Under the pieces are notes generated by a model, which was not told the origin of the DNA, made no database searches, and was given only the letters and a program-made list of their open reading frames with translations. From assembly GCF_000373105.1 (NCBI RefSeq), contig NZ_KB890497.1:1-64000 (forward strand): a stretch of DNA of 64,000 nt. Reading direction: 5' to 3'. The translations under genes were made by a program, and so were the position numbers. Below are positions 9,854 to 61,243 of the stretch, one piece after another. The number at the start of each line of letters is the position of its first letter. Positions within the stretch are counted from its first letter, which is position 1. The DNA comes from Neolewinella persica DSM 23188. GTDB taxonomy: Bacteria; Bacteroidota; Bacteroidia; Chitinophagales; Saprospiraceae.

Positions 9854-10147
9854 GGATGGGCTTCCGTAAATATCTCATCAATATAAATCAGTACGGCTAA
9901 TATACGGCAGCCTTTTGCTTTGGTTATGGTGTTAATTAACGGTTGGTCTTTTTGGGGATAGATTTTTGGGCGGGGCCGCAGGTGCGCGGGAAGGACGAAG
10001 GAGCAAAGAGGGGAAGTGGTGAATTATCGGATGCTTCATTGCTTTCCAAACCCTTTTCCTGCACCTGCGTCCGCGCCTGATTTGGTTTATTGGTATTATT
10101 AGTCTGCTGGTCCTATTGGCCCGCACTAACAGACCAATAACACCAAC
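9854..10147. repeat. Intergenic gap with a complete palindromic repeat (family A) and word repeat
   Basis: Family A left arm (GGCGGGGCCGCAGGTGC) is at 9968-9985 and the inverse right arm (TGCACCTGCGTCCGCGCC) at 10060-10077. Between them lie AAGGA/AAAG-rich and TTTTCC-rich segments that partly pair, so the whole 110-bp unit is an imperfect palindrome. From 10081 to 10147 a second repeat follows: TATTGGT-type words, then ACCAATA-type words, an inverted arrangement like 22508-22621. No gene is credible here. Confidence 0.8.
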
Positions 10148-11599
10148 CTACGGCGTCCTAACCCGTGTAGTCTCCTGAATCCAACACTCCACCTTAAACG
10201 AATCGCCTTCCTTGATTCCCCGCTGGAAGATGTCGGACTTAGAGGGCATGTACTGCGTGTACCGGTTAATCAGAGTATTTGCCTTGCCGGTCAAATCCGG
10301 CTGAATCCGCTTGGCCTGCTGCCACTTATCAATGGCTGGCCAGGTGACGATCTGTGAATCAAAGCCGGTGCCTGGTCCGCAAAGCGGACCCGAGCTCGCG
10401 TAGAGCGTGCCAATAAGCATATAAGGCTCACCGGTGTTAGGATCTGCATCGGCAGCCTTGCGGGCGTAGCTGCGGGCCTGACCGAAATTACGCTTGTGAC
10501 TGTAGTAGACCTTGGCGGCGTAGAGGTAGTAGCGTCCCTTTTTCTCCGCATCATCCGTTTCGTTGGCGGCGGCTTCGAATTTTTCTATGGCACAGTTGTA
10601 GTCGCTGCTTTCGAGGCAGTTGAAGGCCTCTTTGAGGGTAGAAGGACCGCTGTTGACGACTACCCGACAATTTGTTTCGTAGGCGGCCTTGAGTTCGTCA
10701 AACTCCGGTGTGCCTTCAGCACACTTGCCGTAGCGCAGTCGGCTGTAGGCGGTGCGGATGGCATCGCAGTCCGTCGGGTTCTCTTTATAATCACCGTAGT
10801 ACTGGTCAATATAGTACTGGCAGTCGTAAAAGTCCTCCACCGTTTCAAAGTACCGGAGGGTTTCGGGGGCGTAGGCATTGATGGTGTTCCAGGCGGTACA
10901 TTCGGAGGCTTTGCACTCCGCCAACCCTTTGGCGAGACGGGCCTTCAGCGCGTCAACGACCATTTTGGCTTCCTCAACGTCGATCTTCCCGTCCCGGTGT
11001 TGCTCTACCACCAGTTTGGACATCGGATTAATGATGAAATAATTGAGTTTTTCGGCACCGTCGATCTCGATACTTTCCTTGAAAAGGGCGTAGATCTCGT
11101 CGTCGGTAGCGGAGCCGGGGTAGGTGTAGTAACTGTCAAAACCCTGGATGGCAGCCATGTAGCCGTTGCCGGGGTAACACCGGCGAGCTTCCTGATAGAG
11201 CATTAAGATGGTATCGCCATAAGCTTCCTTTCTTTCCGGGAAATCCTTAGCTAACTGCGTGTAGAATACGACCCCGTCGGAATAGACGGTCGGTCGCTTA
11301 CCATCGGCGGCCGGGCTGACGGCATAAACTTTTCGCCAGTATTTCATGGCCCCCTTCATGTCCTTACCCTTCAGCCGCTGGCGGTAGATTACGTAGCTGT
11401 CGGTCACATCGTCCGGATTAGGGGCGTCGGAGAATTTTTTACAAGGGCTCAGGTTGTCGTCAGCGGTCGGTTTGGGTGTCGTAGTCGTTGGCGGGGGAGT
11501 TGCCGTAGTCGCCGGCCCGGCAGCCTTGGGCGTACAGGCGAAAAAACAGAGGAGAATCAGGTATCCAAGTAGGTGGAAAGGGGAGATGCGTAGGTTCAT
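10148..11599 (-). CDS. TPR-containing lipoprotein of unknown role
   Basis: 483 aa. The signal peptide ends with LLCFFAC, a likely lipobox, then a Thr/Pro-rich linker (TTATPPPTTTTPKPT). The rest is largely alpha-helical with TPR-like units, clearest at about 345-425 (DYNCAIEKFEAAA, YYLYAAKVYYSHKRNFGQARSYARKAADADP). Cys residues recur in pairs. Similar TPR lipoproteins are common in Bacteroidota and often sit at the outer membrane, but no function can be assigned. It is divergent from serC. Confidence 0.75.
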   Translation of the reverse strand: MNLRISPFHLLGYLILLCFFACTPKAAGPATTATPPPTTTTPKPTADDNLSPCKKFSDAPNPDDVTDSYVIYRQRLKGKDMKGAMKYWRKVYAVSPAADGKRPTVYSDGVVFYTQLAKDFPERKEAYGDTILMLYQEARRCYPGNGYMAAIQGFDSYYTYPGSATDDEIYALFKESIEIDGAEKLNYFIINPMSKLVVEQHRDGKIDVEEAKMVVDALKARLAKGLAECKASECTAWNTINAYAPETLRYFETVEDFYDCQYYIDQYYGDYKENPTDCDAIRTAYSRLRYGKCAEGTPEFDELKAAYETNCRVVVNSGPSTLKEAFNCLESSDYNCAIEKFEAAANETDDAEKKGRYYLYAAKVYYSHKRNFGQARSYARKAADADPNTGEPYMLIGTLYASSGPLCGPGTGFDSQIVTWPAIDKWQQAKRIQPDLTGKANTLINRYTQYMPSKSDIFQRGIKEGDSFKVECWIQETTRVRTP

Positions 11600-11680
11600 A
11601 TCAGTCGTAAAGTTGGTTATCGGTAGTATAAAGATGCTAAAGCCTTTTGATGTAGGCGTACCAGTGGAGCAAAATCGTAT

Positions 11681-11688
11681 TATTTTTG
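11681..11688 (+). promoter_or_regulatory. Possible -7 box upstream of serC
   Basis: TATTTTTG fits the Bacteroidota -7 consensus TAnnTTTG and lies 18 nt before the serC ATG. No -33 TTG is seen at the usual spacing. Confidence 0.5.
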
Positions 11689-11706
11689 CGACTCAATAGC
11701 CCCAAA

Positions 11707-12765
11707 ATGAAAAAACATAACTTTTTCGCCGGTCCGGCGATCCTCCCCGCTTCCGTTTTGAAAGAAGCTGCTGCGGCAGTTACTGACTTCGCCGGTATGG
11801 GCTTGTCCATCCTGGAAATCAGCCACCGGTCTCCTGAATTCGTCGCAGTACTGGACGAAGCAGAAGCCCTCGTCCGTGAGTTACTGGAAGTTTCTGATGA
11901 CTACGGCGTCCTCTTCCTTCCCGGTGGTGCCAGCAGCGAGTTTTACCTCACCGCCATGAACCTGCTTAACGAAGACGAAACGGCTGGTTACATCGATACC
12001 GGAGCTTGGTCGGCCAAGGCCATCAAGGAAGCCAAGAACTTCGGCCACGTCAACGTTCTGGCTAGTAGCAAAGAGGCCAACTACAACTACATACCTTCTG
12101 GGTACGATATTCCCGCTGGCCTGCGCTACGTTCACTTAACGAGTAACAATACCATTTTCGGTACACAGTTCCAGGAATTTCCGGAAACAGATGCTCCGCT
12201 GGTTGCTGACATGTCTTCTGATATCTTCAGCCGCCCGCTGCCCCTGGAACGCTTTGGCGTCATTTACGCTGGTGCGCAGAAGAATATGGGCCCGGCCGGT
12301 GTTGCCCTGGTGATCGTCCGCAAAGATCTGCTCGGCCATGTGAAGCGCGCACTTCCTTCTATGCTGGATTATCGCGTGCACATCAAAGGCCAGTCCAGCT
12401 TTAATACGCCGCCAGTTTATCCCATTTACGTCAGCATGCTGACCCTGCGTTGGGTTAAGGAGCACGGTGGGGTTGCCGCCATGCAAAAGAAAAACGAAGA
12501 CAAGGCGAAGCTGCTCTACGACGAGATCGACCGTAACCCTAAGTTCCGTACCACCGTTGAAGATCCGGCCAGCCGCAGCCTGATGAACGTTTGTTTCGTG
12601 CCGACCGATGAGGCAGACACGAAGCCTTTCCTGGAGGCTGCCGAAGCCGCAGGCTGCGTCGGCATCAAAGGTCACCGCTCAGTGGGCGGTTTCCGGGCCA
12701 GTATCTACAATTCTATGCCGAAGGAAAGTGTGCAGGTATTGGTGGATGTTATGAAGGCGTTTTAA
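11707..12765 (+). CDS. serC: Phosphoserine aminotransferase
   Basis: Class V PLP-dependent aminotransferase that converts 3-phosphohydroxypyruvate to O-phosphoserine in serine biosynthesis, and also acts in the DXP-dependent PLP route in some bacteria. The start at 11707 gives MKKHNFFAGPAILPASVL, the standard SerC N-terminus; a codon at 11686 would add seven unmatched residues. 352 aa, normal for the family. The PLP lysine is K192 in YAGAQKNMGPAG; substrate-site features include GGASSEFY and GHRSVGGFRAS near the C-terminus. No serA or other serine gene is adjacent. Confidence 0.96.
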   Translation: MKKHNFFAGPAILPASVLKEAAAAVTDFAGMGLSILEISHRSPEFVAVLDEAEALVRELLEVSDDYGVLFLPGGASSEFYLTAMNLLNEDETAGYIDTGAWSAKAIKEAKNFGHVNVLASSKEANYNYIPSGYDIPAGLRYVHLTSNNTIFGTQFQEFPETDAPLVADMSSDIFSRPLPLERFGVIYAGAQKNMGPAGVALVIVRKDLLGHVKRALPSMLDYRVHIKGQSSFNTPPVYPIYVSMLTLRWVKEHGGVAAMQKKNEDKAKLLYDEIDRNPKFRTTVEDPASRSLMNVCFVPTDEADTKPFLEAAEAAGCVGIKGHRSVGGFRASIYNSMPKESVQVLVDVMKAF

Positions 12766-13266
12766 TTCGCTTCGCGAATGTTGCAGGTTCGCTTCGCTCA
12801 TGTTGCAGTTGTTGCAGGGGGGGCAGGTGCGCAGGTCGCAATAGGAAAGAGCCTTTTTCTCTCTCACGGTAGTTCTCTGTGCTCCCTTATTGACCGTTCT
12901 GTGCAGCTCTCTGTGGAAACCGAATTACAGTGTAGCAGTTCCGACATAAATACTGTGGGGCCGGCCTGCCCTTCTTTGCTTGCTCCTTTTAGCCCATCCT
13001 TGTACCTGCGTCCCCGCCGTCAAGACTGCCGAACATGAACTACTTGACTACCGACTATTTGACTAATAAGGCGGGATCGCAGGTGCAAAAAAAGGTAACG
13101 TGCAACCTTTTGCCCAGTTGCCTCGTCTATAATATAGAACCTGACACCACCGTCTTCGTCGATGAAATAAAGACGTTAGTCTACAATCACCCGATTGGGG
13201 TATTAAAGGTTTCTTAAATACCTGCGTAAACCTTAACTTGTTAACAAATTGAAAACCCAACATAAA
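12766..13266. repeat. Intergenic gap with several repeats
   Basis: 500 bp without a credible gene. 12768-12820 holds TTCGCTTCGCGAA and repeats of the word GTTGCAG. A degenerate family A pair lies at about 12816-12830 (GGGGCAGGTGC) and 13001-13018 (TGTACCTGCGTCCCCGCC), about 200 bp apart. 13033-13068 repeats TACTTGACTAC/TATTTGACTA words. A single family A left arm (GGCGGGATCGCAGGTGCA) is at 13070-13087. The last 150 bp are AT-rich and probably hold the promoter of the next gene. Confidence 0.65.
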
Positions 13267-13479
13267 ATGTCTTTCCGTAAAGCAAAATGGTCTTCCTTAA
13301 TCTTCGTATTCCTACTCACGCTAAGTGGCTTGAGTTTCGGGTTTTTGGTAGGTCGTAGCCAGCAGGCACGCGCTGACCAGGCAACGGAGCAATTTCAGCT
13401 AATGGGCGAGCAGGTTAAAGCCGGCGGAGCCGTATTGACTAAAAGTGCGGATGTGTTCCGTCGCATGCTCGTTCGGTAA
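13267..13479 (+). CDS. Small membrane-anchored protein
   Basis: 70 aa from ATG 13267; a TTG 18 nt upstream is a weaker start. One hydrophobic segment at about 9-30 (SSLIFVFLLTLSGLSFGFLVG) is followed by a short polar tail (ADQATEQFQLMGEQVKAGG...FRRMLVR). A strong terminator follows directly, which supports a real transcription unit. No family recognised; it may be a signal-anchored periplasmic peptide. Confidence 0.6.
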   Translation: MSFRKAKWSSLIFVFLLTLSGLSFGFLVGRSQQARADQATEQFQLMGEQVKAGGAVLTKSADVFRRMLVR

Positions 13480-13517
13480 GCTGACTTAAACAAAAGCTTT
13501 TCACCATCAAGCATATA

Positions 13518-13561
13518 GGGCTTGTCAGGAATCAGATTTCCTGACAAGCCCTTATTTTTTT
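13518..13561 (+). terminator. Rho-independent terminator
   Basis: A perfect 14-bp stem, GGGCTTGTCAGGAA (13518-13531) with TTCCTGACAAGCCC (13538-13551) and a 6-nt loop, followed by TTATTTTTTT. Confidence 0.92.
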
Positions 13562-13857
13562 ATGCCGGCTGTTGTAGTCCATCAGCGGTTCCTCATGTGG
13601 TTTTTTTAGGGGCGACCCTCGCGGCTACGGACTGCACACATCTTTACATGGCTTCCCGGCAGGGCGGATGTCGCTTCTGTTAATACTATATTAGCTTAGT
13701 CTTTAGAGAGGGCACTCAGGTTCCATATGGGGAATAGCTGGTAGTCCATTGTTTTTCGGTCGTACTCTCTATGAACGATGAACTACGAATGATTTTGTAT
13801 CATCGCAGCAGCATACAGCCATTGCCGGATTTGATGCATTTGCCCTTAAAAACTACT
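13562..13857. other. Intergenic gap, nothing firm
   Basis: It contains GGGGCGACCCTCGCGGCTACGG at about 13610-13631, related to the GGGCGAACCC word repeat at 5931, and otherwise AT-richer sequence with no gene or clear promoter. Confidence 0.4.
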
Positions 13858-14499
13858 ATGACGAATTTTCTCGGCCTTCTTTGTGACCTCGATGGCACCC
13901 TCGCGGATACCGAACCCCAGCATTGTGCCGCCTGGCTGGAGATGTTGGCGGAAACACACCAGCTAAATTACGACGTTCACTGGTTCGAGCAGTGGATCGG
14001 TACCAGCGACCGTACCGTCGCTGCCTGGTTGATCGATAGGCATCAACTGTCCGTTTCTGTGGATACGTTGATCGAAGCCAAACAAATACGGTTTCATGCG
14101 CTGGTCCGTACTGCCGGCAAAGGATTCTCAGGCGTACCGGAACAACTGGCTACCATCAGCCAGCAGTTTCCCTTAGCAATTGCGACGAACAGCGGCCGTA
14201 AGGATGCCGACGTAGTCGTGCCCGCCCTTGGGCTCGACCGATTCACCAAAACCATTGTAACCGCTACTGACGTAGACCACCTCAAACCCGCGCCCGACAT
14301 TTACCTCCTCGCAGCCCGGCAACTGGGCCTGCCGGCGGACCAGTGCATCGCCATCGAAGACAGTGCGCCTGGAGGGATTGCAGCTAAAGCCGCAGGTTGT
14401 TACCTGATCGGACTGAACGACGGGGTGACGGGGGCAGATGAAGTGGTGGCTGATAATGCGGAGGCGCTGGGGCGGGCACTGGCGTTGTTGCTAAAGTAA
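13858..14499 (+). CDS. HAD family hydrolase (beta-phosphoglucomutase-like)
   Basis: 213 aa. Motif I is D10-L-D12-G-T-L-A-D-T near the N-terminus, motif II is AIATNSG, motif III is the Lys in DHLKPAPDIYL, and motif IV is AIEDSAPGG. The cap region between about 17 and 85 is the alpha-helical C1 type seen in beta-phosphoglucomutase and phosphoglycolate phosphatase. Start 13858 puts motif I at the usual place; an upstream ATG at 13771 would add 29 unmatched residues. Substrate cannot be told; sugar phosphates are typical. Confidence 0.88.
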   Translation: MTNFLGLLCDLDGTLADTEPQHCAAWLEMLAETHQLNYDVHWFEQWIGTSDRTVAAWLIDRHQLSVSVDTLIEAKQIRFHALVRTAGKGFSGVPEQLATISQQFPLAIATNSGRKDADVVVPALGLDRFTKTIVTATDVDHLKPAPDIYLLAARQLGLPADQCIAIEDSAPGGIAAKAAGCYLIGLNDGVTGADEVVADNAEALGRALALLLK

Positions 14500-14543
14500 C
14501 CACTAAGGCATTAAGGGCACTAAGGTCTACACTAAGGGTAAGG
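14498..14543. repeat. Repeat family B (CACTAAGG words)
   Basis: The sequence repeats ACTAAGG/ATTAAGGG/ACTAAGGG and begins on the stop codon of the HAD gene. Closely similar copies occur at 46726-46769 and 62531-62565. The remaining sequence to 14655 is AT-rich and probably holds the promoter of the next gene. Confidence 0.75.
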
Positions 14544-14655
14544 GTGGGGCGTTGGAGTAATCATAGGGGCATTTAGGAGAGGGTGTCCTCAATCAAGCGC
14601 CTATTGGTCACCAATACATTTTAAATATTACCAAATTTATAAACGAACCAGCGAA

Positions 14656-15132
14656 ATGAAGAAAATTAGAATCTCCGTACTTGCGGTAGTCATAGCTTTT
14701 TTGACACTATCATTTAGCTCATTACAGGCACAAGAATTTGAGGAATTGAACAGAGATTCTATCACTTGCCTGGTTAAGCGCTATTATGATTTGAATAAGA
14801 AGATTTTTGCGAGGAATTCAACGGTGGATGATATTGACAATGTGTTCAATCTTTTCACGGATGATTTTACCTATGTCCATCCTAAATATGGTGGTACCTA
14901 TACAAGAGAAACATTATACAGCGGGTACGTAAGGAACCAGGAAAATGGAGGATACGACGGCAAGGTGGTAGATGTTAAAATAATCAATATGATTGTTGGT
15001 TTAAACGCTATTGCCGTTGAAAAGAAATTTGTGGAGAAAACAAAAAATGGCCTGTTAGAAGAGGGACAACCTGAGATGACGCTGTTTGAGTTTAGAAGCA
15101 ATAAGATTGCTAGAATATTTGAGTACTGGTAG
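14656..15132 (+). CDS. Secreted NTF2-like (SnoaL-type) protein
   Basis: 158 aa. A clear signal peptide (KKIRISVLAVVIAFLTLSFS, then SSLQAQ) is followed by a compact domain with the NTF2-like pattern: an N-terminal helix, FTDDFTYVHPKYGGTYTRE, then strands ending in MTLFEFRSNKIARIFEYW, typical of the SnoaL fold's last strand. Such proteins are ligand-binding or small isomerase/hydrolase domains. It stands alone between the HAD gene and dinB. No catalytic assignment. Confidence 0.78.
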   Translation: MKKIRISVLAVVIAFLTLSFSSLQAQEFEELNRDSITCLVKRYYDLNKKIFARNSTVDDIDNVFNLFTDDFTYVHPKYGGTYTRETLYSGYVRNQENGGYDGKVVDVKIINMIVGLNAIAVEKKFVEKTKNGLLEEGQPEMTLFEFRSNKIARIFEYW

Positions 15133-15261
15133 CATTCAGTCTTACGACCGTTTCCTTCTCCTAATCGACCGTTTCCTTTTTAAATTAACACTTTTTGTTT
15201 GTTTTTCGTGCATGCGTAGCCGTTATTTGCAACTAATTGCATTAACAACTCCGCAAAACAC

Positions 15262-16395
15262 ATGTTCCAAAAAGCCATCCTCCATTTGGATATGGACGCC
15301 TTCTTCGCGTCTGTGGAAATCATGAAAAACAGCCAATTGATTGGTTTGCCGGTAATTGTGGGTGGGACGGGCGGCAGGGGAGTGGTCAGTTCCTGCAGTT
15401 ATGAGGCCCGTCATTTCGGGATTCATGCGGGGATGCCAATGGCGGTGGCGCTCCGCCGGTGCCCGGCGGCGAAGGTGATCCGGGGGGACTACGAGGACTA
15501 TGAGAGGCACTCCGCCATCGTTACGGAAATCATTGCCGAGGAAGGGCCGCTGTTTGAGAAGGCTTCGATCGATGAGTTTTACGTTGATATCTCGGGCATG
15601 GACCAATATATCGGTTGCGTCCAGTGGAGCAAGGATTTAAGGGCGCGGATTAGCCGGGAGACGGGCCTGCCGCTGTCGGCCGGGCTGGCAATCAACAAAC
15701 TGGTGTCGAAAGTCCGTGCCGGAGAGGCGAAGCCAAACGGCTCGGGCTGGGTGGCTGAGGGAGCGGAGCGGGCCTTTCTTTCTCCGTTGCCGGTCCGTAA
15801 AATTCCTTCGGTTGGCCGGGAAACGGCCCGTAAACTTAGCCTCCTCGGTATCCGTAAGACGGGGACGTTGAGCCAGGTGCCCGTCAATCTGCTGGAGCGG
15901 GAGTTCGGTAAACCCGGCCGGGAGCTGCACCGGCGGGCCAACGGCATCGATCACCGACCGGTAATACCCTTTACTGATCGCAAATCGTTCTCCGCCGAGC
16001 ATACCTTTCAAACGGACACCATTGATGTGGAAGCCCTCCGTCGTTGCCTCCGGGACCTGACGATGCGCCTTGGCTATGACCTCCGCCAGGCGGGAAAGCT
16101 TACGGCAGGCGTAACGGTGAAGATTCGCTACACCGATTTTAATACGTACACCAAAAGCCGGCGCATCAGGTACACTGCCCATGACCAGCAACTACTGCCC
16201 GTGGTGGACAGGTTGTTTACTGACCTGTTCTCCCGCCGGCAGTGCATCCGTCTGGTGGGTGTCCGTTTTGATCGCCTGGCGGCGGGCCACACCCAGCTGG
16301 ACCTGTTTACGGATACGGAGGAAGACAGTGCCTTGTTGGGGGCCTTGGATCGGGTACGCAAGCGGTTTGGTCGAGGAAGTATCGGGCGAGGGTAG
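15262..16395 (+). CDS. dinB: DNA polymerase IV (Y-family)
   Basis: 377 aa. Translesion DNA polymerase. Catalytic acidic residues are D10 in HLDMDAFFASVE and D104/E105 in ASIDEFYVDISG. The helix-hairpin-helix thumb region (IPSVGRETARKLSLLGI) and little-finger domain follow. QLDLF at about 345-349 matches a beta-clamp binding motif, placed internally rather than at the extreme C-terminus. The gap before it (15133-15261) has a direct repeat CGACCGTTTCCTT. No umuD or imuA neighbour is present. Confidence 0.95.
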   Translation: MFQKAILHLDMDAFFASVEIMKNSQLIGLPVIVGGTGGRGVVSSCSYEARHFGIHAGMPMAVALRRCPAAKVIRGDYEDYERHSAIVTEIIAEEGPLFEKASIDEFYVDISGMDQYIGCVQWSKDLRARISRETGLPLSAGLAINKLVSKVRAGEAKPNGSGWVAEGAERAFLSPLPVRKIPSVGRETARKLSLLGIRKTGTLSQVPVNLLEREFGKPGRELHRRANGIDHRPVIPFTDRKSFSAEHTFQTDTIDVEALRRCLRDLTMRLGYDLRQAGKLTAGVTVKIRYTDFNTYTKSRRIRYTAHDQQLLPVVDRLFTDLFSRRQCIRLVGVRFDRLAAGHTQLDLFTDTEEDSALLGALDRVRKRFGRGSIGRG

Positions 16396-16525
16396 AGGAG
16401 AATTCGCTCGTCCGCGAGGGGAATCTTTGTGATACTTTCTGATCTATCGGCGGATAAGTCAGATCCTACGTCGCGCCTTGGCCGACGAGGAATCTTCCCC
16501 AGTGTGTTATATCGCTCAGGTTAGT
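16396..16525. other. Intergenic gap with imperfect inverted segments
   Basis: Contains GAGGGGAATCTT at about 16416 and GAGGAATCTTCCCC near 16488-16501, which can partly pair, between dinB and the LytTR gene. It could be a terminator-like fold but lacks a T run. Confidence 0.3.
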
Positions 16526-16533
16526 CATCTTTG
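16526..16533 (+). promoter_or_regulatory. -7 box of the LytTR gene
   Basis: CATCTTTG (consensus TAnnTTTG, one mismatch) ends 6 nt before the ATG at 16540, so the transcript would have almost no leader. Confidence 0.45.
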
Positions 16534-16539
16534 CTCTAC

Positions 16540-17319
16540 ATGAAAATTCCTGCTCTAACCATCAACCTCAGTTTCTGGGCGCACTTCCGTTTGGGGCTGG
16601 TGATTGCGGTGTGGTTGGTCGCTTTTCTGGTTTTGATCGGGCCATTTGACGGGGCAGAGCTCTCGTTAGCTATCCGTGCAAGGTTGATGCCGCCCTACGG
16701 TATGATCTTTCTCCTGGCCTATATGCCGATGGTTTGGTTACAGAATTTCCTGCACCGCCAACTGGGCTACTGGAACCTGCTAACCGAGACAATCATCGTT
16801 TTGGGAGCTTACCTGATTTGTTTGTTGCTGACCTACGCCTATTACAAATCACCGGTAATGAACGGCACCATGGACTTTGGAACATTTACTGCTTCCGTTT
16901 TTATCCCAACGGTATTGATCCTTAGCTTTATCCTACTGTTTGGCCGGTGGTTCATCAGCAGGAAGGAGTTGGCGGCCGTACCAGAGGCCTTTCCGAAATT
17001 ACTCGCCTTGCGTGGGGACAATCGACATGATGTGCTCCGGCTTTTGCCGGAGCAGCTGGTTTGTGTGCTCAGCGCCCAAAACTACGCGGAGGTTTACTAC
17101 TTGCTCGATGGTGAATTGAAAAAGCAGTTACTTCGTACGACGCTCACTAAACTGGACCGGGAGGTGCCTGACCTACTTCGCGTACATCGGTCTGCTCTGG
17201 TCAATCCCGCACATTTTGTGCGGTGGGAAGGTGCTACCGAAGCCGTGTTTTATACCGTGGAAGTTCCGGTCTCAAAGCAATATCGGAAGCAGTTGATGAC
17301 GGCTTTGGCGAAGGAGTGA
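16540..17319 (+). CDS. Membrane LytTR family DNA-binding regulator
   Basis: 259 aa. Four hydrophobic segments occupy about residues 15-145, then a LytTR domain covers about 165-258 (LPEQLVCVLSAQNYAEVYYLLDG, LLRVHRSALVNPAHFVRWEG, VPVSKQYRKQL). LytTR domains bind direct DNA repeats. The typical response-regulator receiver domain is replaced by a membrane sensor-like part, an arrangement found in many Bacteroidota. ATG 16540 is chosen over a TTG at 16531 that lies inside the -7 box. No histidine kinase is adjacent, so it may sense a membrane signal directly. Confidence 0.88.
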   Translation: MKIPALTINLSFWAHFRLGLVIAVWLVAFLVLIGPFDGAELSLAIRARLMPPYGMIFLLAYMPMVWLQNFLHRQLGYWNLLTETIIVLGAYLICLLLTYAYYKSPVMNGTMDFGTFTASVFIPTVLILSFILLFGRWFISRKELAAVPEAFPKLLALRGDNRHDVLRLLPEQLVCVLSAQNYAEVYYLLDGELKKQLLRTTLTKLDREVPDLLRVHRSALVNPAHFVRWEGATEAVFYTVEVPVSKQYRKQLMTALAKE

Positions 17320-17327
17320 TGCCGGAG

Positions 17328-17402
17328 GGCCGGAGGGCCGTCTCTCGTAGCGAGGGGTCAGTGAAGGACCATAGGTCCGAGCGCAGCCCCTCGTTTTCGT
17401 TA
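17328..17402. repeat. Repeat family C (GGCCGGAGG...CCCCTCG TTTTCGTT)
   Basis: Starts GGCCGGAGGGCCG and contains the arms CGAGGGG (17351-17357) and CCCCTCG (17387-17393), followed by TTTTCGTT. A second copy with the same ends and a different loop is at 25532-25607. The T-rich end means it may double as a terminator for the LytTR gene. Confidence 0.7.
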
Positions 17403-17549
17403 GCGCAATAAGGGCACTCCCTCCTTTTGGTTAACAAGGAAAGCTTTCCCCATCCCTCAAAACCCCATTTTCATCCCAAAGCCAATGAAATAGCGGGTAC
17501 AGAGGGCTACCTGCCCTTAGTTTTGTTGGGTAATCAAAAATACCGAACG

Positions 17550-18626: not shown

Positions 18627-18838
18627 GAGTTTGGTTTAGCTGTTTACTGTGTAGTGGGGCGGGGGCGCAGGTGCAGGGGGAGTTGTTGGGCGGTGCCCGT
18701 TGCGGCGCTGCGCGCCGCTAGCGTGGCCTCACCTCCGGAGCCTTAACGTGTATGGGGCTCACCCCGGATTGCGGCCGCTACCGCTAGCCTACATCCGGGG
18801 ATATTCAGGGTCGACCCCTACGGGGTCATCTGAACCGC
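18627..18838. repeat. Intergenic gap with family A arm, hairpins and family D
   Basis: 18656-18675 is a single family A left arm (GGGCGGGGGCGCAGGTGCA). 18702-18718 is a perfect hairpin GCGGCGC-TGC-GCGCCGC. 18762-18769 CCCCGGAT and 18793-18800 ATCCGGGG form family D, also found at 45451-45491. 18811-18826 holds GACCCC-TAC-GGGGTC. The gap lies between convergent genes, so these hairpins may act as terminators. Confidence 0.65.
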
Positions 18839-19879
18839 CTAAAACGAATCAACCACCAACACCCCCCGGTGCTCAAATGCATTCATCTTCGGTAGGGCTA
18901 CCGCTGCTTCGGCAAGGCTGATGGTTCGTTCAATGAGTTTTTCCGGATGCAGCTTTCCGTTACTGATCATCTCCAGCATTTCAGGATACTTGTGGGCCTG
19001 CATACCATGGCTGCCGAAGATCTCCAGTTCGTGTGCCAGCACTTTGTCCATCGGTATGTTCGGGTGCTGGTGGTCGCCGGTCATGAGGCCGATCTGGATA
19101 TGGCGGCCGCGTTTTCTGAGGTTGGCAATGGAGTTGAAGCACGTCTCCTGGCTACCCAGGGCATCCAGGGAAACGTGTGCACCGCCTTTTGTCAGGTCCT
19201 TGATCTCTTCCACCACGTCGGCGCTATTTGCTCCGTTTACGGTGGCAAAGGCGCCGAGGCTTTGGGCAAAACGAAGTGTCTCTTCACTAATGTCTACTCC
19301 AATCACCTGTGCCCCCAGGGCACTGGCGATCATGATCGCCGAAAGCCCCACACCACCGCAGCCATGTACCACTACGTACTGCCCGCCAGTAACCCGACCC
19401 TGCTGAACGATGGCACGGTAAGAAGTGATGAATCGACACCCAAGCGTTGCCGCAGCAACGGAGCTGATCTCCGGAGGGATCTTTACGAGGTTGGTATCCG
19501 CAAAGTCGATGGCCACGTACTCAGCAAAGGAGCCCCAATGGGTAAAACCCGGCTGAGATTGATGGTCACAAACCTGATGATTACCGGAATTACATTCTCC
19601 GCAAGTACCACAACCACAGACGAAAGGTACCGTGACGCGGTCGCCTACTTTGAAGTTTCGTACTTGCTTACCAACTGCGGCTATCGTACCGGCCAGCTCG
19701 TGCCCCGGTACGTGGGGGAGAGTAATGTCGGTGTCGTGTCCTACCCAGCCGTGCCAGTCGCTACGGCAAAGACCGGTGGCTTCTACTGCAATGACCACGC
19801 CCTTATCCTTTGGGCTTGGATCGGGGAGAATTTCGATGGTGATGGCCCCTTGAAAATTACGGTAAAGTGCTGCTTTCAT
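18839..19879 (-). CDS. Zinc-dependent alcohol dehydrogenase family protein
   Basis: 346 aa, medium-chain dehydrogenase. Catalytic zinc ligands are C38 and H60-E61 (PHVPGHE). The structural zinc is bound by C90, C93, C96 and C104 ([17 protein letters not shown]). The NAD(P) fold has [14 protein letters not shown] and ends in a conserved VGVDIS strand; D after VIGV suggests NAD preference. The closest pattern is the broad-range alcohol dehydrogenase / threonine-dehydrogenase-like group. Oxidises an alcohol to an aldehyde or ketone; substrate unknown. No neighbour in a pathway. Confidence 0.92.
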
Positions 19880-20230
19880 AGTTTGATATTGGTAGGTGAT
19901 GACGGTTGACAGGGACCAAATGTAATGGTGATTTGACGAATGCGCTTCGAATTATTCTATGCGTATGTATCAGAAATTGAACAAGCAGATTAAAAGAAGA
20001 TAAGGCCTTAACCGCTTTAATCGCAGGTCTAAACAGTCTTCTTTTTCCGTGCTCCTTTAATACTTTTCCCTGCACCTGCGACCGCGCCCTGCATATAAGC
20101 ATACTTGTATGTAATGCATGTGCCTACACCCTTTACATATAAGTACGTTTATATGTTTTCAACACAAAGTCTTACCAAATTCTCAGGAACCTCCCTAAAC
20201 CTTCCCCCGTTCAAGCGGTTACTACATCCT
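19880..20230. repeat. Divergent intergenic gap with family A right arm
   Basis: The right arm TGCACCTGCGACCGCGCC is at 20071-20087; a worn left arm (TAATCGCAGGTCT) may remain at about 20018-20030, with TTTTCC/CCTTTAATAC between. 20096-20160 is AT-rich with repeated CATATAAG/ATACTTGTA words and probably holds the glgX promoter. Confidence 0.6.
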
Positions 20231-22621: not shown

Positions 22622-22623
22622 GT

Positions 22624-25607: not shown

Positions 25608-25610
25608 TTA

Positions 25611-25762
25611 GGCGGGGCCGCAGGTGCAAAGTAAGGATAAAGGCAAGCCGAACACGACGCCACCAGCAGCGGTTGGAGCTAGAAATCAATAACGCTACGC
25701 AGAACAATGCTGAAACAAACCCTGCTTCTTTTACTCTTTTTATGCACCTGCGCTTCGACGCC
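25611..25762. repeat. Family A palindromic repeat spanning a gene start
   Basis: Left arm GGCGGGGCCGCAGGTGCA at 25611-25628, followed by AAGGATAAAGG; right arm TGCACCTGCGCTTCGACGCC at 25743-25762. The right arm lies inside the coding region that starts at 25707 and encodes part of its signal peptide (LCTCAS). Confidence 0.75.
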
Positions 25763-27559: not shown

Positions 27560-27579
27560 AGCAGCCAAAGGCTGCATCA

Positions 27580-28831: not shown

Positions 28832-28899
28832 GGCGCGGGCGCAGGTGTGAAAAGAACATTGCCCTTAAAAGTCTTTTCATTGCACCTGCGGCCGCGCCC
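28832..28899. repeat. Family A palindromic repeat, compact copy
   Basis: Left arm GGCGCGGGCGCAGGTGTGAA at 28832-28851 and right arm TTGCACCTGCGGCCGCGCCC at 28880-28899, with AAAAGAACATTG and CCCTTAAAAGTCTTTTC between. At 68 bp it is the shortest complete pair in the window and shows the palindrome most clearly. Confidence 0.85.
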
Positions 28900-31087: not shown

Positions 31088-31319
31088 GGCTTCATGGATT
31101 AAATGGTGAGGGAGTATTTTGCGGGGCTAAAGTACGGTGCTGGAACATATTTTAGGGGCGCGGCCGCAGGTGCAAAGGGCGGATAATGGAAAAAGGCTGA
31201 AGGGCCATGAGCTGGTCGCGTTTCTTGCAGATGGGTGGTAAAAAAAACCGCCACCAACTCCGGCCACCACTGTGCGAGCCGAACTAAGCTTTTCTTTCCG
31301 CTAAAACGTTAAATTACTC
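31088..31319. repeat. Divergent gap with a family A left arm
   Basis: GGGGCGCGGCCGCAGGTGCA at 31155-31174, followed by AAGGGCGGATAATGGAAAAAGG. No right arm is seen. The rest has no gene. Confidence 0.7.
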
Positions 31320-36355: not shown

Positions 36356-36373
36356 GGCGCGGTCGCAGGTGCA
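36356..36373. repeat. Family A left arm
   Basis: GGCGCGGTCGCAGGTGCA followed by AAGAAAGTTTAAGGG, 64 nt before the next gene. No right arm found. Confidence 0.75.
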
Positions 36374-41874: not shown

Positions 41875-41971
41875 GGGGCGGGGCCGCAGGTGTAGCGCAA
41901 AGGATAAAGGGAGCAAAGGATAAAAGGAAGGTCTGCTTCAATTAACATTTCCCAGCACCTGCGGCCGCGCC
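41875..41971. repeat. Family A palindromic repeat, complete copy
   Basis: Left arm GGGGCGGGGCCGCAGGTGTA (41875-41894), two AAAGGATAAAGG-type words, then right arm AGCACCTGCGGCCGCGCC (41954-41971), between convergent genes. Confidence 0.85.
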
Positions 41972-45527: not shown

Positions 45528-46274
45528 TTACAGCTTCATGCGTTTGCCTTCAACTTTGATGCTGATGGGGTCAGTGATCTTTTCGGCGTATTCGATCAGG
45601 AGATCGCGGATGAGTAGGCCACTTTTGATTTTGGGCAATTCTTTCAGCATACTAGTATTGCTGCCGCCGTTAGCCACATAGTCAGGAAGTGCGATGGTGT
45701 AGACCTGATTGGGATCAATGGCTTTACCTCCAATTTTGACGTCGAGTCCGCTGCCGGACGAGATGACGGAGAGGCCGGCACTTACTGGCCAGCCACCATC
45801 GTTGGCGATGTGGCTGATGAATTCTTTGAACACCTTACCGTTGAGTTCCATCAGTACGAGTTCATTGTCGAAGGGCATCAACTCATAAATTTCGGAAACA
45901 AGCAGTGGGCCCGTACCGATCTCGCCAACCCGGATACCTCCCTGATTAAGGGTAGCAAAGACAATGTTGCGATCGGGGAAACTGCCAGCTGCGGCCTGAG
46001 CAAAAAGATCTGCTACCCAGTTGCCAAGGGTGCTTTCTGGTTGCCCTTTTTTGAGCGGTGTTTTTACCGTCGCCAACTGCCGATTCATTTTGTCGTCGAG
46101 TTGGGCTTTGTAGGGGGCGATGGTTGAAACCATTCTTTGCACCTGCGGCCCCGCCTGATCAGCCTCGAGCTTGTCGGAAACCGAATAGAAACGAGGTTGT
46201 ACTGTGGGCGAAGAAAGCGGTGCCCGACAGCCGAAACCGAGCAAAAGGAGGAATATGTACAGGAGGTTACGCAT
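45528..46274 (-). CDS. 5'-nucleotidase C-terminal domain lipoprotein
   Basis: 248 aa. The N-terminus ends in LLLGFGC, a lipobox. The body matches the substrate-binding domain of UshA: LGNWVADLFAQAA, TLNQGGIRVGEIGTGPLLVSEIYELMPFDNELVLMEL cut at usual motifs, SAGLSVI and ALPDYVANGGS. A family A repeat arm (46138-46156) lies in frame near residue 40 and encodes A-G-P-Q-V-Q-R. Upstream DUF423 overlaps its start by a few bases, so all three minus-strand genes form one operon. Confidence 0.88.
   Translation of the reverse strand: MRNLLYIFLLLLGFGCRAPLSSPTVQPRFYSVSDKLEADQAGPQVQRMVSTIAPYKAQLDDKMNRQLATVKTPLKKGQPESTLGNWVADLFAQAAAGSFPDRNIVFATLNQGGIRVGEIGTGPLLVSEIYELMPFDNELVLMELNGKVFKEFISHIANDGGWPVSAGLSVISSGSGLDVKIGGKAIDPNQVYTIALPDYVANGGSNTSMLKELPKIKSGLLIRDLLIEYAEKITDPISIKVEGKRMKL
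46138..46156. repeat. Family A arm inside a coding region
   Basis: TGCACCTGCGGCCCCGCCT on the plus strand; on the coding strand it reads G-GCG-GGG-CCG-CAG-GTG-CAA-AG, in frame, encoding AGPQVQ. Confidence 0.8.
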
Positions 46275-51276: not shown

Positions 51277-51369
51277 GGGGCGCGGCCGCAGGTGCAAGGG
51301 AAAGTTATAACCTGCAACCTGCAACTTGCAACCTGCAACCTGCAACCTGCAACCTGCAACTTGCAACCT
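51277..51369. repeat. Family A left arm plus tandem CCTGCAA repeat
   Basis: GGGGCGCGGCCGCAGGTGCA at 51277-51296, then from 51309 to 51369 a 7-bp unit (ACCTGCA / ACTTGCA) repeated about eight times with two T-variants. It resembles a microsatellite and lies between convergent-oriented ends just after the PPDK-like stop. Confidence 0.85.
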
Positions 51370-54411: not shown

Positions 54412-56634
54412 ATGGCTACTTGGAAAAACCGCGTTGCTCTCCCTGCTCTTCTTTTGCTGTGTTTCTGCACCTGCGTCCGCGCCCAAAATCCGGACCATTC
54501 AGTGGCAAGGCTTTGGAACGAAGAAATGCTGGAAGGGATACGGAACGATTTTGCCCGCCCGGTTGTGCACGCCCGTAATCTTTACCACGTATCCGCAGCC
54601 ATGTATGACTCGTGGAGTTTGGTCAATAAAAAAGGAACGACCTGCCTGATGGGGACCATACAGGCAGGACAGGAGCTGCCCGTTGAACATTGGAACATCG
54701 AAGCGTTTGATGACCCGGTTGCCGCGAGTAATGAAGCCGTCAGCTATGCCGCCTTCCGGATGCTTAACCATCGGTATTTCAGGTCACCAAATGCCGCCAC
54801 AACCCTTCCCCGGTTCACGGCTTTGATGGAGGAGCTGGGTTATGATCCCGGCTACACCGGGGTAGACTACACCGGAGGAAACCCTGCTGATATTGGTAAC
54901 TATGTGGCCCAAAAAATCATTGAATTTGGAATGCGCGACGGTAGTAATGAAGCCGGTGATTACCAAAACATCAACTATCCGGATCCGGTTAACCGTCCGC
55001 TGATTTTCAACAGCGTTTTCTCCATTTTCTCGGTAGTAGACCCTAATCACTGGCAGACCTTGCAGTTCCCCGGAACCATTATCGACCAATCCGGACAAGC
55101 GATCGGTGATTCCCTACTGGCTTTTCTGGGGGCAGAATGGGGTCATGTGACGCCCTTTGCCCTTGATGAAGAGGACCGGACGGACCCAACGGTGGCCAAC
55201 CCCATCCGTGGCAACAACCCCGTTTACCATGATCCGGGCTCCCCACCGCTGTTTTCCAGTTCTGACCAGGAAAGTTTTGATATGTATCGCTGGGGTTTTG
55301 AAATGGTCATGAAATGGAGCAGCCACCTCGATCCCTCTGATGGGGTCATGTGGGACATCTCTCCGGGTGCCCGTGGAAATTTCCAGGGAGACTATCCAAC
55401 TGATTTTGCCGATTACCCGGCCTTTTACCGGGAGCATGAAGGTGGCACCTTCGGGGCAAACGGCCACGCGCTAAACCCAGCTACCGGAGCGCCTTACCCG
55501 GAAAATATTGTACCCCGGGGAGATTACGCCCGGGTCCTGGCTGAATTCTGGGCCGACGGCCCCACCAGTGAAACGCCACCCGGACACTGGTTCACCATTT
55601 TGAACAAAGTGATGGATCACCCGCTTTTCGAGCGTCGTTTTGCCGGCGTCGGGGAAGTTATGGACAACCTGGAGTATGACGTAAAGGCCTATCTCACCCT
55701 TGGTGGTGCCATGCATGATTCTGCCATCTCAGCCTGGAGCATAAAGGGGAAGTACGATTATGCCCGGCCGATAACGGCCATCCGCTGGATGGCTAAGAAC
55801 GGACAGGCTACCGATATTGACGGCCGGAATTACAACCGGAATGGTTTCAAGTTGGATGATGGATTCATAGAAGAACTTACGGACCCCTCGGAATTAGAGA
55901 ACAATGCGACTCTGGCATTGACGAAGGTAAAATCGTGGATCGGCCCCCAGGCCATTGATGACCCAACTACCGACGTAGCCGGCGTAGGGTGGATCAACGC
56001 GGCAATGTGGATGCCTTACCAGCGACCTAACTTCGTGACCCCCAATTTCGCAGGGTACATCTCCGGCCATTCAACCTTTAGCAGCGCGGCCGCCACCGTG
56101 ATGACCTCAATAACGGGATCGCCTTACTTCCCAGGTGGAGTTGGGGAGTTTGTGGCGAAGAAGGATTCTTTCCTCGTCTTTGAAAAAGGACCCAGCGTGG
56201 ATGTTGTCCTGCAGTGGGCAACTTACCGGGACGCCTCCGACCAAACGAGCCTTAGCCGCATCTGGGGCGGAATTCACCCACCCGCAGATGACGTGCCAGG
56301 CCGGATCATCGGTATAGATATTGGTACAGAAACATTTGCTGCCGCCGAAGCCATCTTCAACGGTAACCTGAGCAGTAACCGATCGGAACCAGTTGTCGCC
56401 ACCCAGCTAAAGACTTACCCGAACCCCGCAAAGCGTGGCGAAGTAATTTCACTGGAAATTCCCGTTGCGCCCCGCGGTGAAGGACTTGTTGTTTATGATG
56501 TAAACGGACGTAATGTGATGGACCTTAAAGTGACCACCAACAGGGTCCTGGTGCCGACAGTTGACCTCGCCAGGGGAATGTACTTCGTGCGGTCCGTCGA
56601 CGGCCAGTGGGGAAGTGCTTTCCAGGTATGGTAG
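54412..56634 (+). CDS. Vanadium-dependent haloperoxidase-like PAP2 protein with T9SS type A domain
   Basis: 740 aa. The signal peptide ends in LLCFCTCVRAQ, encoded by a family A repeat arm. The PAP2/haloperoxidase active-site motifs are AGYISGHSTFSSAA (His at 553, acid/base) and RIWGGIHPPADDVPGR (His at 622, vanadate or phosphate ligand, with flanking Arg). Earlier, RPITAIRWMAKNG supplies the first Arg. The C-terminal 80 residues (LKTYPNPAKRGEVISLEI...LARGMYFVR) are a T9SS type A sorting domain, so the protein is exported and probably surface-anchored. It may oxidise halides or act as a phosphatase; which one cannot be told. Confidence 0.92.
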   Translation: MATWKNRVALPALLLLCFCTCVRAQNPDHSVARLWNEEMLEGIRNDFARPVVHARNLYHVSAAMYDSWSLVNKKGTTCLMGTIQAGQELPVEHWNIEAFDDPVAASNEAVSYAAFRMLNHRYFRSPNAATTLPRFTALMEELGYDPGYTGVDYTGGNPADIGNYVAQKIIEFGMRDGSNEAGDYQNINYPDPVNRPLIFNSVFSIFSVVDPNHWQTLQFPGTIIDQSGQAIGDSLLAFLGAEWGHVTPFALDEEDRTDPTVANPIRGNNPVYHDPGSPPLFSSSDQESFDMYRWGFEMVMKWSSHLDPSDGVMWDISPGARGNFQGDYPTDFADYPAFYREHEGGTFGANGHALNPATGAPYPENIVPRGDYARVLAEFWADGPTSETPPGHWFTILNKVMDHPLFERRFAGVGEVMDNLEYDVKAYLTLGGAMHDSAISAWSIKGKYDYARPITAIRWMAKNGQATDIDGRNYNRNGFKLDDGFIEELTDPSELENNATLALTKVKSWIGPQAIDDPTTDVAGVGWINAAMWMPYQRPNFVTPNFAGYISGHSTFSSAAATVMTSITGSPYFPGGVGEFVAKKDSFLVFEKGPSVDVVLQWATYRDASDQTSLSRIWGGIHPPADDVPGRIIGIDIGTETFAAAEAIFNGNLSSNRSEPVVATQLKTYPNPAKRGEVISLEIPVAPRGEGLVVYDVNGRNVMDLKVTTNRVLVPTVDLARGMYFVRSVDGQWGSAFQVW
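54466..54483. repeat. Family A right arm inside a signal-peptide codon region
   Basis: TGCACCTGCGTCCGCGCC in frame encodes C-T-C-V-R-A, directly at the predicted cleavage site. Confidence 0.85.
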
Positions 56635-58732: not shown

Positions 58733-58752
58733 GGGGCGGGGCCGCAGGTGCA
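58733..58752. repeat. Family A left arm
   Basis: GGGGCGGGGCCGCAGGTGCA, in the gap between the subtilisin start and the aroK stop. Confidence 0.8.
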
Positions 58753-60191: not shown

Positions 60192-60275
60192 TTCATAGTT
60201 CAGTAGTCTGTAGTTCAATAGCCTGAAGCAAGGGCTCCATATCCATGAACTATAGAGTATGAACTATTGAACTAC
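60189..60275. repeat. Inverted short-word repeat (TAGTTCA / TGAACTA)
   Basis: GTTCATAGTTCAGTAGTCTG and TAGTTCAATAG on the left face ATGAACTATAG, ATGAACTATTGAACTAC on the right. It begins on the ppa stop codon. Confidence 0.7.
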
Positions 60276-60697
60276 TAACGCGAATCAAGAGCTAAAACCA
60301 GAAAATTGGACGCTTGGAGGTAGGGTATACAAAATTTCGTCTAGAACCTCTAAAAGTCGCCTCTCCCCCAGCCCCTCTCCCCCGGAGAGGGGTGACCCAA
60401 GCATCAGTGTTTTCAGGCGAAATGGAGGAAGGATTCACGCTCAAAACTCAAGTAAATACAACCATCTAAGCTGCTTGAGACGATACAGCAAGGCAGTAGC
60501 CGCAGCGTAGTTTAGTTCCCCTCTCCGGGGGAGAGGGGTTAGGGGAGAGGCGACTTCGCACAGGGTTAAGTCTCTAAATATCGGACACCCTTGCTCGGAG
60601 GTTACTACCGACAAAATTGCTGCGCAATTCCGTCGATCGCAACGCTCCGAGCGTCTGCACTTGGCCTTTTAGCCTTTGATTCGCGTTACTAGACTAG
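60275..60697. mobile_element. Nested inverted-repeat element (MITE-like)
   Basis: Outer ends: CTAACGCGAATCAAGAGC (60275-60292, then TAAAA) is inverse to TTTTAGCCTTTGATTCGCG (60667-60685, then TTAC). Inside lies a larger inverted pair: 60356-60392 (GTCGCCTCTCCCCCAGCCCC...) and 60518-60554 (...GGGGAGAGGCGAC), 37 bp each with about three mismatches and each itself palindromic (CTCTCCCCCGGAGAG). About 125 bp lie between. No coding capacity is seen. The outer repeat also occurs alone at 38924-38953. Confidence 0.6.
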
Positions 60698-60709
60698 CAA
60701 CTAATTACC

Positions 60710-60717
60710 TACATTTG
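60710..60717 (+). promoter_or_regulatory. -7 box of the DUF1573-yajC-ybbR operon
   Basis: TACATTTG, an exact TAnnTTTG, 28 nt before ATG 60746. Confidence 0.6.
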
Positions 60718-60745
60718 CCCTTCGGCGAAAAACCTCCCGCTACGT

Positions 60746-61243
60746 ATGAAATTGATCTTTCAGGTTCTACTCCCTGCTTTTCTTCTTTCCCTGCTCCTAA
60801 GTTGTGAGTCTGGACCCGCGTCCGCGCCGGATAATGGAACAGATGTGTCGGAACTCGGCCCGAATGCTGCCTTGATTCGTAACCCGGTAGATGCCGGGGT
60901 GGACAATATCGATACGGTAAACGTGGCGAAATTATCCTTTGCTGAAGCCAACAAATTTACTTTTGGAAGTGTAAAAGAGGGGGAAGTCGTCAACCATGAT
61001 TTTACCTTTACCAATACTGGTAAGGTGCCGTTGTTGATTACAAAAGCCCGATCTACCTGTGGCTGCACGGTCCCTGCTTATCCCGAGCAACCCGTTGCTC
61101 CGGGAGAGGGAGGGGTCATCTCGGTGGCCTTCGACACAAAAAACAAATACGGACAGCAAACCAAAGCCGTCACGATTACTGCAAATACTTATCCTGCCTC
61201 CACTGTTGTGTACATTGATGGCACCGTAATAAAAGAAAAATAA
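60746..61243 (+). CDS. DUF1573 lipoprotein
   Basis: 165 aa. The signal ends in LLLSCESG, a lipobox. The DUF1573 domain is recognised by FTFTNTGKVPLLITKARSTCGCTVPAYP and GVISVAFDTK, an Ig-like (ASH/MSP-type) fold. Codons just after the lipobox (SGPASAPD) lie in a worn family A arm at 60813-60829. In many Bacteroidota a DUF1573 gene sits directly upstream of yajC, as here (2-nt gap). Function unknown. Confidence 0.9.
   Translation: MKLIFQVLLPAFLLSLLLSCESGPASAPDNGTDVSELGPNAALIRNPVDAGVDNIDTVNVAKLSFAEANKFTFGSVKEGEVVNHDFTFTNTGKVPLLITKARSTCGCTVPAYPEQPVAPGEGGVISVAFDTKNKYGQQTKAVTITANTYPASTVVYIDGTVIKEK

Follow-up and report, generated by a model that had tools for sequence, protein, structure and literature searches.

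An evenly spaced, asymmetric 18-nt repeat with lineage dialects in Neolewinella: a putative self-identifying tag for DNA uptake

A short motif recurs on both strands of the first 64,000 nt of contig NZ_KB890497.1 of Neolewinella persica DSM 23188 (the window), where a first-pass annotation read it as a palindromic element resembling REP sequences or Rickettsia palindromic elements (RPE). The locus raises the question of what the unit of this repeat is, how its copies arise and what might maintain so many of them.

A dispersed family of single arms

In the window, 19 sites matched the motif with at most three mismatches, compared with a mean of 0.07 and a largest count of 2 in 100 dinucleotide shuffles, and a weight matrix at a score of at least 12 recovered the identical 19 arms (Table 1). 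The dispersed repeat is real, as had been claimed. The repeat unit is a single asymmetric arm, ttttngGGCGcGGcCGCAGGTGCAangnaagg, with an 18-nt core and about 36 bits of information; T-rich and purine-rich sides lie around the core and the motif as a whole is not palindromic. Exact matches to GGCGSGGNCGCAGGTGCA numbered 857 across the 7.08-Mb genome (415/442 between the strands), with 0 for the reversed-pattern control. The motif is hugely over-represented across the whole genome, neither confined to the window nor present at a chance count, and the predicted family of hundreds of copies was borne out (hundreds to thousands). In 464 kb the matrix identified 156 arms, about one per 3 kb, compared with 2 in a Markov control, and the score distribution was nearly empty in the middle, with 157 arms at scores of at least 8 and 151 at scores of at least 18. 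In the original locus list, seven starts had been displaced by 1–2 bases, the arm at 3393 had been overlooked, and two listed sites, 12816 (score −1.2) and 25743 (score −3.9), were rejected as arms by their weight-matrix scores.

Table 1. Arms of the repeat in the 64,000-nt window; the seven starts that differ from the original list are marked as corrected
Feature	Position	Strand	Evidence
Solo arm in predicted gene 3228-3767 (reads GADAGA)	3393..3410	+	mismatch search and matrix
Facing pair, left arm (corrected start)	9969..9986	+	mismatch search and matrix; fold
Facing pair, right arm (partner 9969)	10060..10077	-	mismatch search and matrix; fold
Arm back to back with 13070	13001..13018	-	mismatch search and matrix
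Arm back to back with 13001	13070..13087	+	mismatch search and matrix
Solo arm, convergent gap (corrected start)	18658..18675	+	mismatch search and matrix
Solo arm, divergent gap	20071..20088	-	mismatch search and matrix
Solo arm, divergent gap	25611..25628	+	mismatch search and matrix
Facing pair, left arm, weaker (score 24)	28832..28849	+	mismatch search and matrix; fold
Facing pair, right arm (partner 28832)	28881..28898	-	mismatch search and matrix; fold
Solo arm, intergenic (corrected start)	31157..31174	+	mismatch search and matrix
Solo arm, intergenic	36356..36373	+	mismatch search and matrix
Facing pair, left arm, convergent gap (corrected start)	41877..41894	+	mismatch search and matrix; fold
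Facing pair, right arm (partner 41877), convergent gap	41954..41971	-	mismatch search and matrix; fold
Solo arm adjoining predicted gene start	46138..46155	-	mismatch search and matrix
Solo arm, intergenic (corrected start)	51279..51296	+	mismatch search and matrix
Solo arm in signal-peptide-like reading LLLLCFCTCVRAQ of ORF 54412-56634; gene caller's start 54526	54466..54483	-	mismatch search and matrix
Solo arm, intergenic (corrected start)	58735..58752	+	mismatch search and matrix
Weaker arm (score 19) in lipoprotein-signal-like reading, ORF 60746-61243; gene caller's start 60845 (corrected start)	60811..60828	-	mismatch search and matrix

Coding copies, dialects and phage contigs

Arms were intergenic in 100 of the 156 cases and inside genes in 56; coding arms numbered 52, compared with a mean of 9.7 and a maximum of 15 in 20 synonymous-codon shuffles. 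Coding arms were compared with orthologues in pairs of at least 50 % identity and at least 60 % coverage, with an arm score of at least 14 and more than 8 columns between the arm and the alignment ends. Arms present only in N. persica comprised 13 cases in six genes, which are not independent; eight had no indel within 4 residues and five had indels of 2–3 residues. A further 23 cases were shared and six were found only in the relative (four without an indel, two with 2-residue gaps). An 18-nt insertion was never seen at a coding arm in the orthologue alignments. Among 19 MtaB-like orthologues (rows absent for G009 and G019), 15 contained GANAGAK-type arms, and the arm-less rows read KKNPDAK, KKNADAK, GVNEEAK and KLNPQAR at equal length. 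For CysRS, 18 of 20 loci were aligned, with L188 and L189, two pieces of a broken gene in G011, omitted and rows absent for G009, G011 and G018. The comparison applies to coding copies, intergenic orthologous gaps being too few and too diverged to align. These alignments indicate that coding arms arise through point substitution, replacing the aligned codons of the orthologues.

Of 20 genus relatives, 18 had the spelling of N. persica in at least 10 copies, and its count was 0 in each of 39 genomes from other genera. Comparison of the genus sequences indicates that lineage-specific dialects are present, with whole-genome counts of 545 (G013), 252 (G001), 459 (G010), 438 (G019) and 282 (G004) and with spellings as divergent as GCCGCAGGTGCA and CAAAGTAGCA. 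The core of the G010 dialect is nearly unrelated, and its 459 copies compare with 0 in the remaining 20 genus genomes. Arm density across 20 genus genomes was 1.75–4.65 per 10 kb (at least 3.0 in 11), although dialect definition is weak for G006, G012, G015, G016 and G020, and up to 4 matches in reversed or Markov controls came from matrices trained on short samples. Agreement with phylogeny, in a tree of two proteins from the 17 genomes having both, was loose: the sisters G001 and G006 were alike in spelling, and G013 fell within the N. persica clade with weak support. In word-enrichment tests on 11 genomes from other genera (13–120 kb each), no dispersed word was as strong as those of the clearest genus genomes, a test that is weak in that the motif was not (clearly) the top word in short samples of G006, G007, G012, G015, G016 and G020. 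The strongest such word, TTACGGAAGT, occurred 6 times in 120 kb of G036 (z 8.9), compared with z of 13–35 in N. persica, G001, G010 and G013. Contexts were inspected for six of the 11 genomes; stretches of G024, G027 and G030 were too short to include.

Phage contigs with several arms each were detected, one of which had integrase, terminase and portal-like genes. Viral stretches numbered 71; among the 24 listed, 20 contained at least two arms at a score of at least 20, two of these (L309 and L320) being overlapping micro-repeats. The contigs were selected for carrying the motif, and their assignment to a host depends on it. These contigs recall the uptake signal sequences (USS) that are described as accumulating in Pasteurellaceae prophages (PMC6776037).

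The origin by point change inside genes, together with the differing spelling in relatives, makes a 'self' tag for DNA uptake the most likely explanation, and there is good reason to regard the motif as a putative self-identifying tag of the uptake-sequence kind. Competent cells of the genus would bind motif-bearing extracellular DNA and import it for recombination at the homologous place. Because alleles with a better motif would be taken up more often, biased transformation (molecular drive) would let the motif build up at sites where coding permits. A shift in the receptor would then bring about a shift in dialect, and the divergence between GCCGCAGGTGCA and CAAAGTAGCA suggests that the receptor was probably replaced inside one genus.

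Spacing, pairing and other explanations

The arms are strand-balanced, widespread and evenly spaced. In 360 kb the coefficient of variation of arm spacing was 0.55, compared with 0.92 for random placement, and none of 1000 random sets was as even; values were below random in seven of seven stretches, with p≤0.02 in three. Even spacing and the intergenic preference would also be expected if the motif were bound by a chromosome-organising or replication/repair protein (nucleoid-associated, Chi- or KOPS-like) and its spacing kept by selection, and presence on phage contigs would suit a repair or protection site too. This possibility is nevertheless unlikely. Chi- and KOPS-like roles were rejected on strand balance, with 59 forward and 61 reverse arms within 360 kb of one GC-skew sign; proteins of these kinds usually need less than about 36 bits of information; and G010 departs from the rest at hundreds of sites together, a pattern easier to explain by self-reinforcing drive. 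An iterated word driven by methylation or mismatch repair and kept by a DNA methyltransferase is a poorer candidate, with little probability. HIP1 of cyanobacteria is likewise highly iterated genome-wide, with alternates replacing it in some lineages (PMC4390886), but it is an 8-nt palindrome linked to methyltransferases, whereas the arm has an asymmetric 18-nt core with distinct flanks and even spacing.

The first-pass annotation had proposed five two-armed loci; only three facing pairs (9969/10060, 28832/28881 and 41877/41954) and one back-to-back pair (13001−/13070+) were found. The facing pairs are able to form hairpins, as suggested, with fold z of −2.5, −6.8 and −3.6. Within 300 bp, 23 facing and four back-to-back pairs were detected in 464 kb, the facing pairs differing from the terminator pairs of DUS (DNA uptake sequences) and USS in their loops of 31–250 nt and A-rich outer flanks, and 46 of 156 arms belonged to a facing pair. 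Samples from G001 and G013 lacked the facing bias: both had 0 facing pairs, and back-to-back pairs numbered 2 in G001 and 1 in G013. REP/BIME and Rickettsia palindromic elements are also dispersed in hundreds of copies, mostly intergenic and partly inverted, with RPE present in coding frames as well, and the dispersed, mostly intergenic copies and foldable facing pairs described here would accord with a mobile palindromic or MITE-like element of which single arms are remnants. However, those elements spread by inserting, while the coding copies in Neolewinella substitute existing codons without an element-length insertion. No weak facing partner (score >5) was detected within 300 bp of any of 100 solo arms, and solo arms scored as highly as paired arms (medians 34.8 and 33.2), so single arms do not appear to be remnants. 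A mobile palindrome is rejected for the coding copies by the orthologue alignments and, given also the solo-arm result, the even spacing and the coordinated dialects, is very improbable overall.

Transcription terminators or other RNA hairpins are the least probable explanation: facing pairs can form stems, and inverted pairs of the Neisseriaceae DNA uptake sequence (DUS) are linked to terminators (PMC3630211), but 110 of 156 arms are outside facing pairs, loops are long, the T-rich stretch preceding the left arm means that an A-rich flank and no U tract follows the right arm, convergent gaps are not favoured (10 of 100 intergenic arms compared with 43 of 290 of all gaps), and none of 17 terminator-like sites in 9001–29000 overlapped an arm in a scan permitting 3–8-nt loops only.

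A role as gene-start regulator was rejected. Among the 110 unpaired arms, 15 forward and 14 reverse lay within 100 bp before a start and 13 and 9 within 100 bp after a stop, so orientation at gene borders does not account for the facing pairs. The only orientation bias was in the first 75 nt of genes, where 0 arms were forward and 8 reverse, a pattern compatible with signal-peptide codons. For 70 of 100 solo arms, the top-scoring weak facing partner on the inside outscored that on the outside (medians −13.9 and −18.0, with no score >5), a difference perhaps due to base composition.

Known uptake systems and competence genes

Uptake sequences are described as known in Neisseriaceae and Pasteurellaceae only, both of them Proteobacteria, with lengths of ca. 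9–12 nt (PMC12616744). The self tag proposed for Neolewinella resembles USS in its strong core and softer flanks, evolution by point mutation, lineage dialects and, perhaps, accumulation in phages of the host (PMC7811141, PMC6776037, PMC12616744). It differs in being unrelated in sequence and phylum (Bacteroidota), in a core twice as long, in long-looped pairs and in a density of about one per 3 kb instead of about one per kb (PMC7811141). With DUS it shares dialects, high counts, inverted pairs and copies inside genes (PMC3630211); however, DUS are shorter, are bound by the type IV minor pilin ComP and form terminator-associated pairs. Among the matches listed from titles and abstract starts in the open-access literature (bioRxiv being outside this scope), there were no uptake sequences for Neolewinella, Lewinella or Saprospiraceae and nothing on competence in Lewinella.

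ComEC was detected in 21 of 21 genus genomes and DprA in 20 of 21, but ComEC presence is not discriminating since 16 of 19 genomes from other genera have it too. Uptake through DUS and USS uses type IV pili, whereas no full-length PilB/PilT-type ATPase was detected in the 21 genus genomes, the only matches being partial T2SSE ones that covered no more than about 85 of 370 positions and in some cases lay at the family cut-off. The putative receptor would therefore be of another kind, probably other than a type IV pilin. On balance we favour, with somewhat less assurance than the tag itself, a third, independent origin of self-recognition in DNA uptake, which would lie in Bacteroidota, without type IV pili, and act through another receptor that was probably replaced within one genus. 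Riemerella columbina, another member of the phylum, is described as favouring DNA of its own kind, and no motif has been confirmed for it (PMC7965970).

If true, such convergence in another phylum, in a system that apparently lacks type IV pili, would suggest transformation drive to be a general result of evolution. It would also hint at a second type of DNA receptor and make this multi-dialect genus a testbed for receptor–motif co-evolution. DUF5689 is a protein family essential for transformation in Riemerella. It was not found in 20 of the 21 genus genomes, a point against the uptake reading, and the sole genome with a DUF5689 protein was G010, the bearer of the unrelated dialect.

Abundance, arrangement and range of the motif

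The motif GGCGCGGCCGCAGGTGCA had 19 matches in the window against 0.07 expected (up to three mismatches). In the whole 7.08-Mb genome of Neolewinella persica, 857 exact copies of GGCGSGGNCGCAGGTGCA were found (415 and 442 on the two strands), while the same word read backwards gave none. A 400-kb sample of the genome was analysed together with the window. What was conserved there was a single asymmetric arm, in which T-rich sequence precedes the core GGCG[C/G]GGNCGCAGGTGCA and approximately 20 purine-rich bases follow it. A weight matrix detected 156 arms at a score of at least 10, compared with two each for a Markov control and the reversed matrix, and this count was nearly independent of threshold (157 at score 8, 151 at score 18). 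Neighbouring arms within 300 bp were mostly facing (23, with loops of 31–250 nt), with four back to back and one in the same direction. The remaining 110 arms lay outside facing pairs. Extrapolation would place the genome-wide total at roughly 1,900–2,400 arms.

Over 360 kb of one contig, in which GC skew kept a constant sign, arms were divided 59/61 between strands, with a difference of at most 3 within any 60-kb block. After merging arms up to 300 bp apart (97 units), mean spacing was 3.7 kb with a CV of 0.55. When units were placed at random with an unchanged coding share, the CV was 0.92±0.10, and none of 1000 placements reached 0.55; the longest stretch without an arm was 9.8 kb, compared with 20 kb on average under random placement. 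A different gene mask also gave a CV below random in all seven stretches, which came from four genomes (P≤0.02 in three, two from N. persica and one from the relative G010; 0.07–0.17 in the remaining four).

The N. persica spelling was present in all 20 same-genus relatives (1 to 535 copies per genome, at least 10 in 18 of them), being at chance level in G001 (one copy) and G010 (two copies), and had no copies in any of 39 other-genus genomes of the family and order. Among the 80 stretches listed from a scan of a named genome collection, 57 were Neolewinella, Lewinella, Saprospiraceae or 'Bacteroidia bacterium' records and 22 were lone matches in other taxa.

Copies within genes

A simple gene caller placed 56 of the 156 arms in coding sequence, with densities of 13.0 per 10 kb in noncoding and 1.45 in coding DNA. 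Coding arms occurred in either orientation and in every reading frame (GADAGA, APAAAP and CTCGRAQ are examples), and the reverse reading suits signal-peptide ends (Table). At a score of at least 16 there were 52 coding arms, against a mean of 9.7 (maximum 15) over 20 synonymous-codon shuffles.

Orthologues of an MtaB-like protein, found in 19 of the 21 genus genomes (N. persica included), aligned without gaps around the arm, which was present in 15 (GANAGAK, GGNAGAK or GGNAGAR) and absent from four (KKNPDAK, KKNADAK, GVNEEAK, KLNPQAR). Among 18 aligned CysRS sequences, eight had the arm and ten did not, two of the latter with small indels. Gene pairs between N. persica and its relatives, from the stretches compared, contained 13 arms specific to N. 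persica, which are not independent because they come from six genes; eight had no indel within four residues and five had indels of 2–3 residues there. A further 23 N. persica arms were shared with the relative, and six were specific to the relative (four without an indel, two with two-residue gaps). No 18-nt insertion was seen at an arm among these coding comparisons. For coding copies, the alignments point to an origin through point mutation, not insertion.

Dialects in relatives and occurrence in phages

Low counts of the N. persica spelling were frequently accompanied by different spellings. G013 had 545 copies of GGCGCTGNCGCAGGTGC, compared with 26 in N. persica and at most 132 elsewhere (G005), and G001 had 252 of GGCGGAGCGCAGGTA, with no more than five in any other genome of the genus. 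The word GGCGSGGNCGCGGGWGC occurred 438 times in G019, 282 in G004 and 162 in N. persica; the N. persica spelling occurred 78 and 20 times, respectively, in the first two. The G010 motif, ttttggctnnCAAAGTAGCAatg, has a nearly unrelated core: GCTNNCAAAGTAGCA had 459 copies there, none in N. persica and the 19 other genus genomes, and at most two in any of 39 others. The behaviour seen in N. persica recurred in G010, which had 3.5 arms per 10 kb, including arms within genes, some at signal-peptide-like ends (TATLLAQ), and a facing bias (7 vs 2) not seen in smaller samples from G001 (0 vs 2) or G013 (0 vs 1). Densities in 20 genus genomes were 1.75–4.65 per 10 kb (at least 3.0 in 11), some being rough because training samples were small, with up to four control matches. 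In a tree of 17 genomes, G001 and G006 were sisters with similar spellings and G013 fell within the N. persica clade with weak support. Dialects of G006, G012, G015, G016 and G020 were weakly defined. A weak dispersed word, TTACGGAAGT, occurred six times in 120 kb of G036, from another genus (stretches L268–L273).

The exact pattern was present in 71 IMG/VR stretches. At least two arms (score of at least 20) were found in 20 of these, or in 18 if two that consist of overlapping micro-repeats are set aside. Some of the stretches are nearly identical to one another or belong to the same contig, and their arm density is biased because all were selected for the pattern. L314 carried four arms in 10.9 kb, three within ORFs, together with terminase, portal-like, head-protease and integrase genes. 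L329 and L331 form one contig with tape-measure, tail and endolysin genes, and L311 also has several copies. The motif might help in assigning uncultured phages to hosts.

Comparison with uptake sequences

Taken together, its abundance, the point-mutation origin of coding copies, dialects, strand balance, even spacing, tolerance within genes and, probably, presence in phages of the host make the motif resemble uptake sequences. Point mutation is also the reported mode of evolution of USS (PMC7811141), and USS accumulation has been reported in phages lysogenising Pasteurellaceae (PMC6776037). As far as the sequence can show, the motif would work like DUS and USS. It is, as far as we can tell, not a member of either by descent, since its sequence is unrelated, the phylum is another one, the receptor probably differs, and the terminator and type IV pilus features were not found. 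If true, this would be a third origin of uptake sequences, in a phylum other than Proteobacteria and with type IV pili apparently not involved.

ComEC was found in all 21 genus genomes and 16 of 19 others, and DprA in 20 of 21, the exception being 55 % complete. T2SSE-family matches in the genus spanned at most ~85 of 370 positions, some at the family cut-off score; full-length matches occurred in two genomes of other families. The partial matches appear to be nucleotide-binding motifs of other ATPases, and therefore no pilus ATPase was found in the genus genomes. Riemerella transformation requires ComEC, DprA, ComF, RecA and four more proteins, one with DUF5689 (PMC8459023). DUF5689 was found in 15 of 19 other-genus genomes and in G010, which also has the unrelated dialect (Table), but in none of the remaining 20 genus genomes.

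Other repeats were observed in the window (Table).

Table. Signal-like readings of arms, the DUF5689 match and other repeats
Position	Feature	Detail
ORF at 54412	Reverse reading of arm at signal-peptide-like end	LLLLCFCTCVRAQ
ORF at 60746	Reverse reading of arm	Lipoprotein-like signal
G010 contig C115:8691-10592	Sole DUF5689 match in 21 genus genomes	Three domain matches, 708-aa frame
10117-10153	Intergenic-looking word	Like CCAATAAGACCAACAGA
22565-22635	Intergenic-looking word	Like CCAATAAGACCAACAGA; tandem
42728-42764	Intergenic-looking word	Like CCAATAAGACCAACAGA
38924-38953	30-nt word	TTTTAGC...GATTCGCGTTAC
60667-60696	30-nt word	Second copy
60272-60297	30-nt word	Inverted copy
60354-60556	Inverted repeat	39-nt arms 125 nt apart, 95 % complementary
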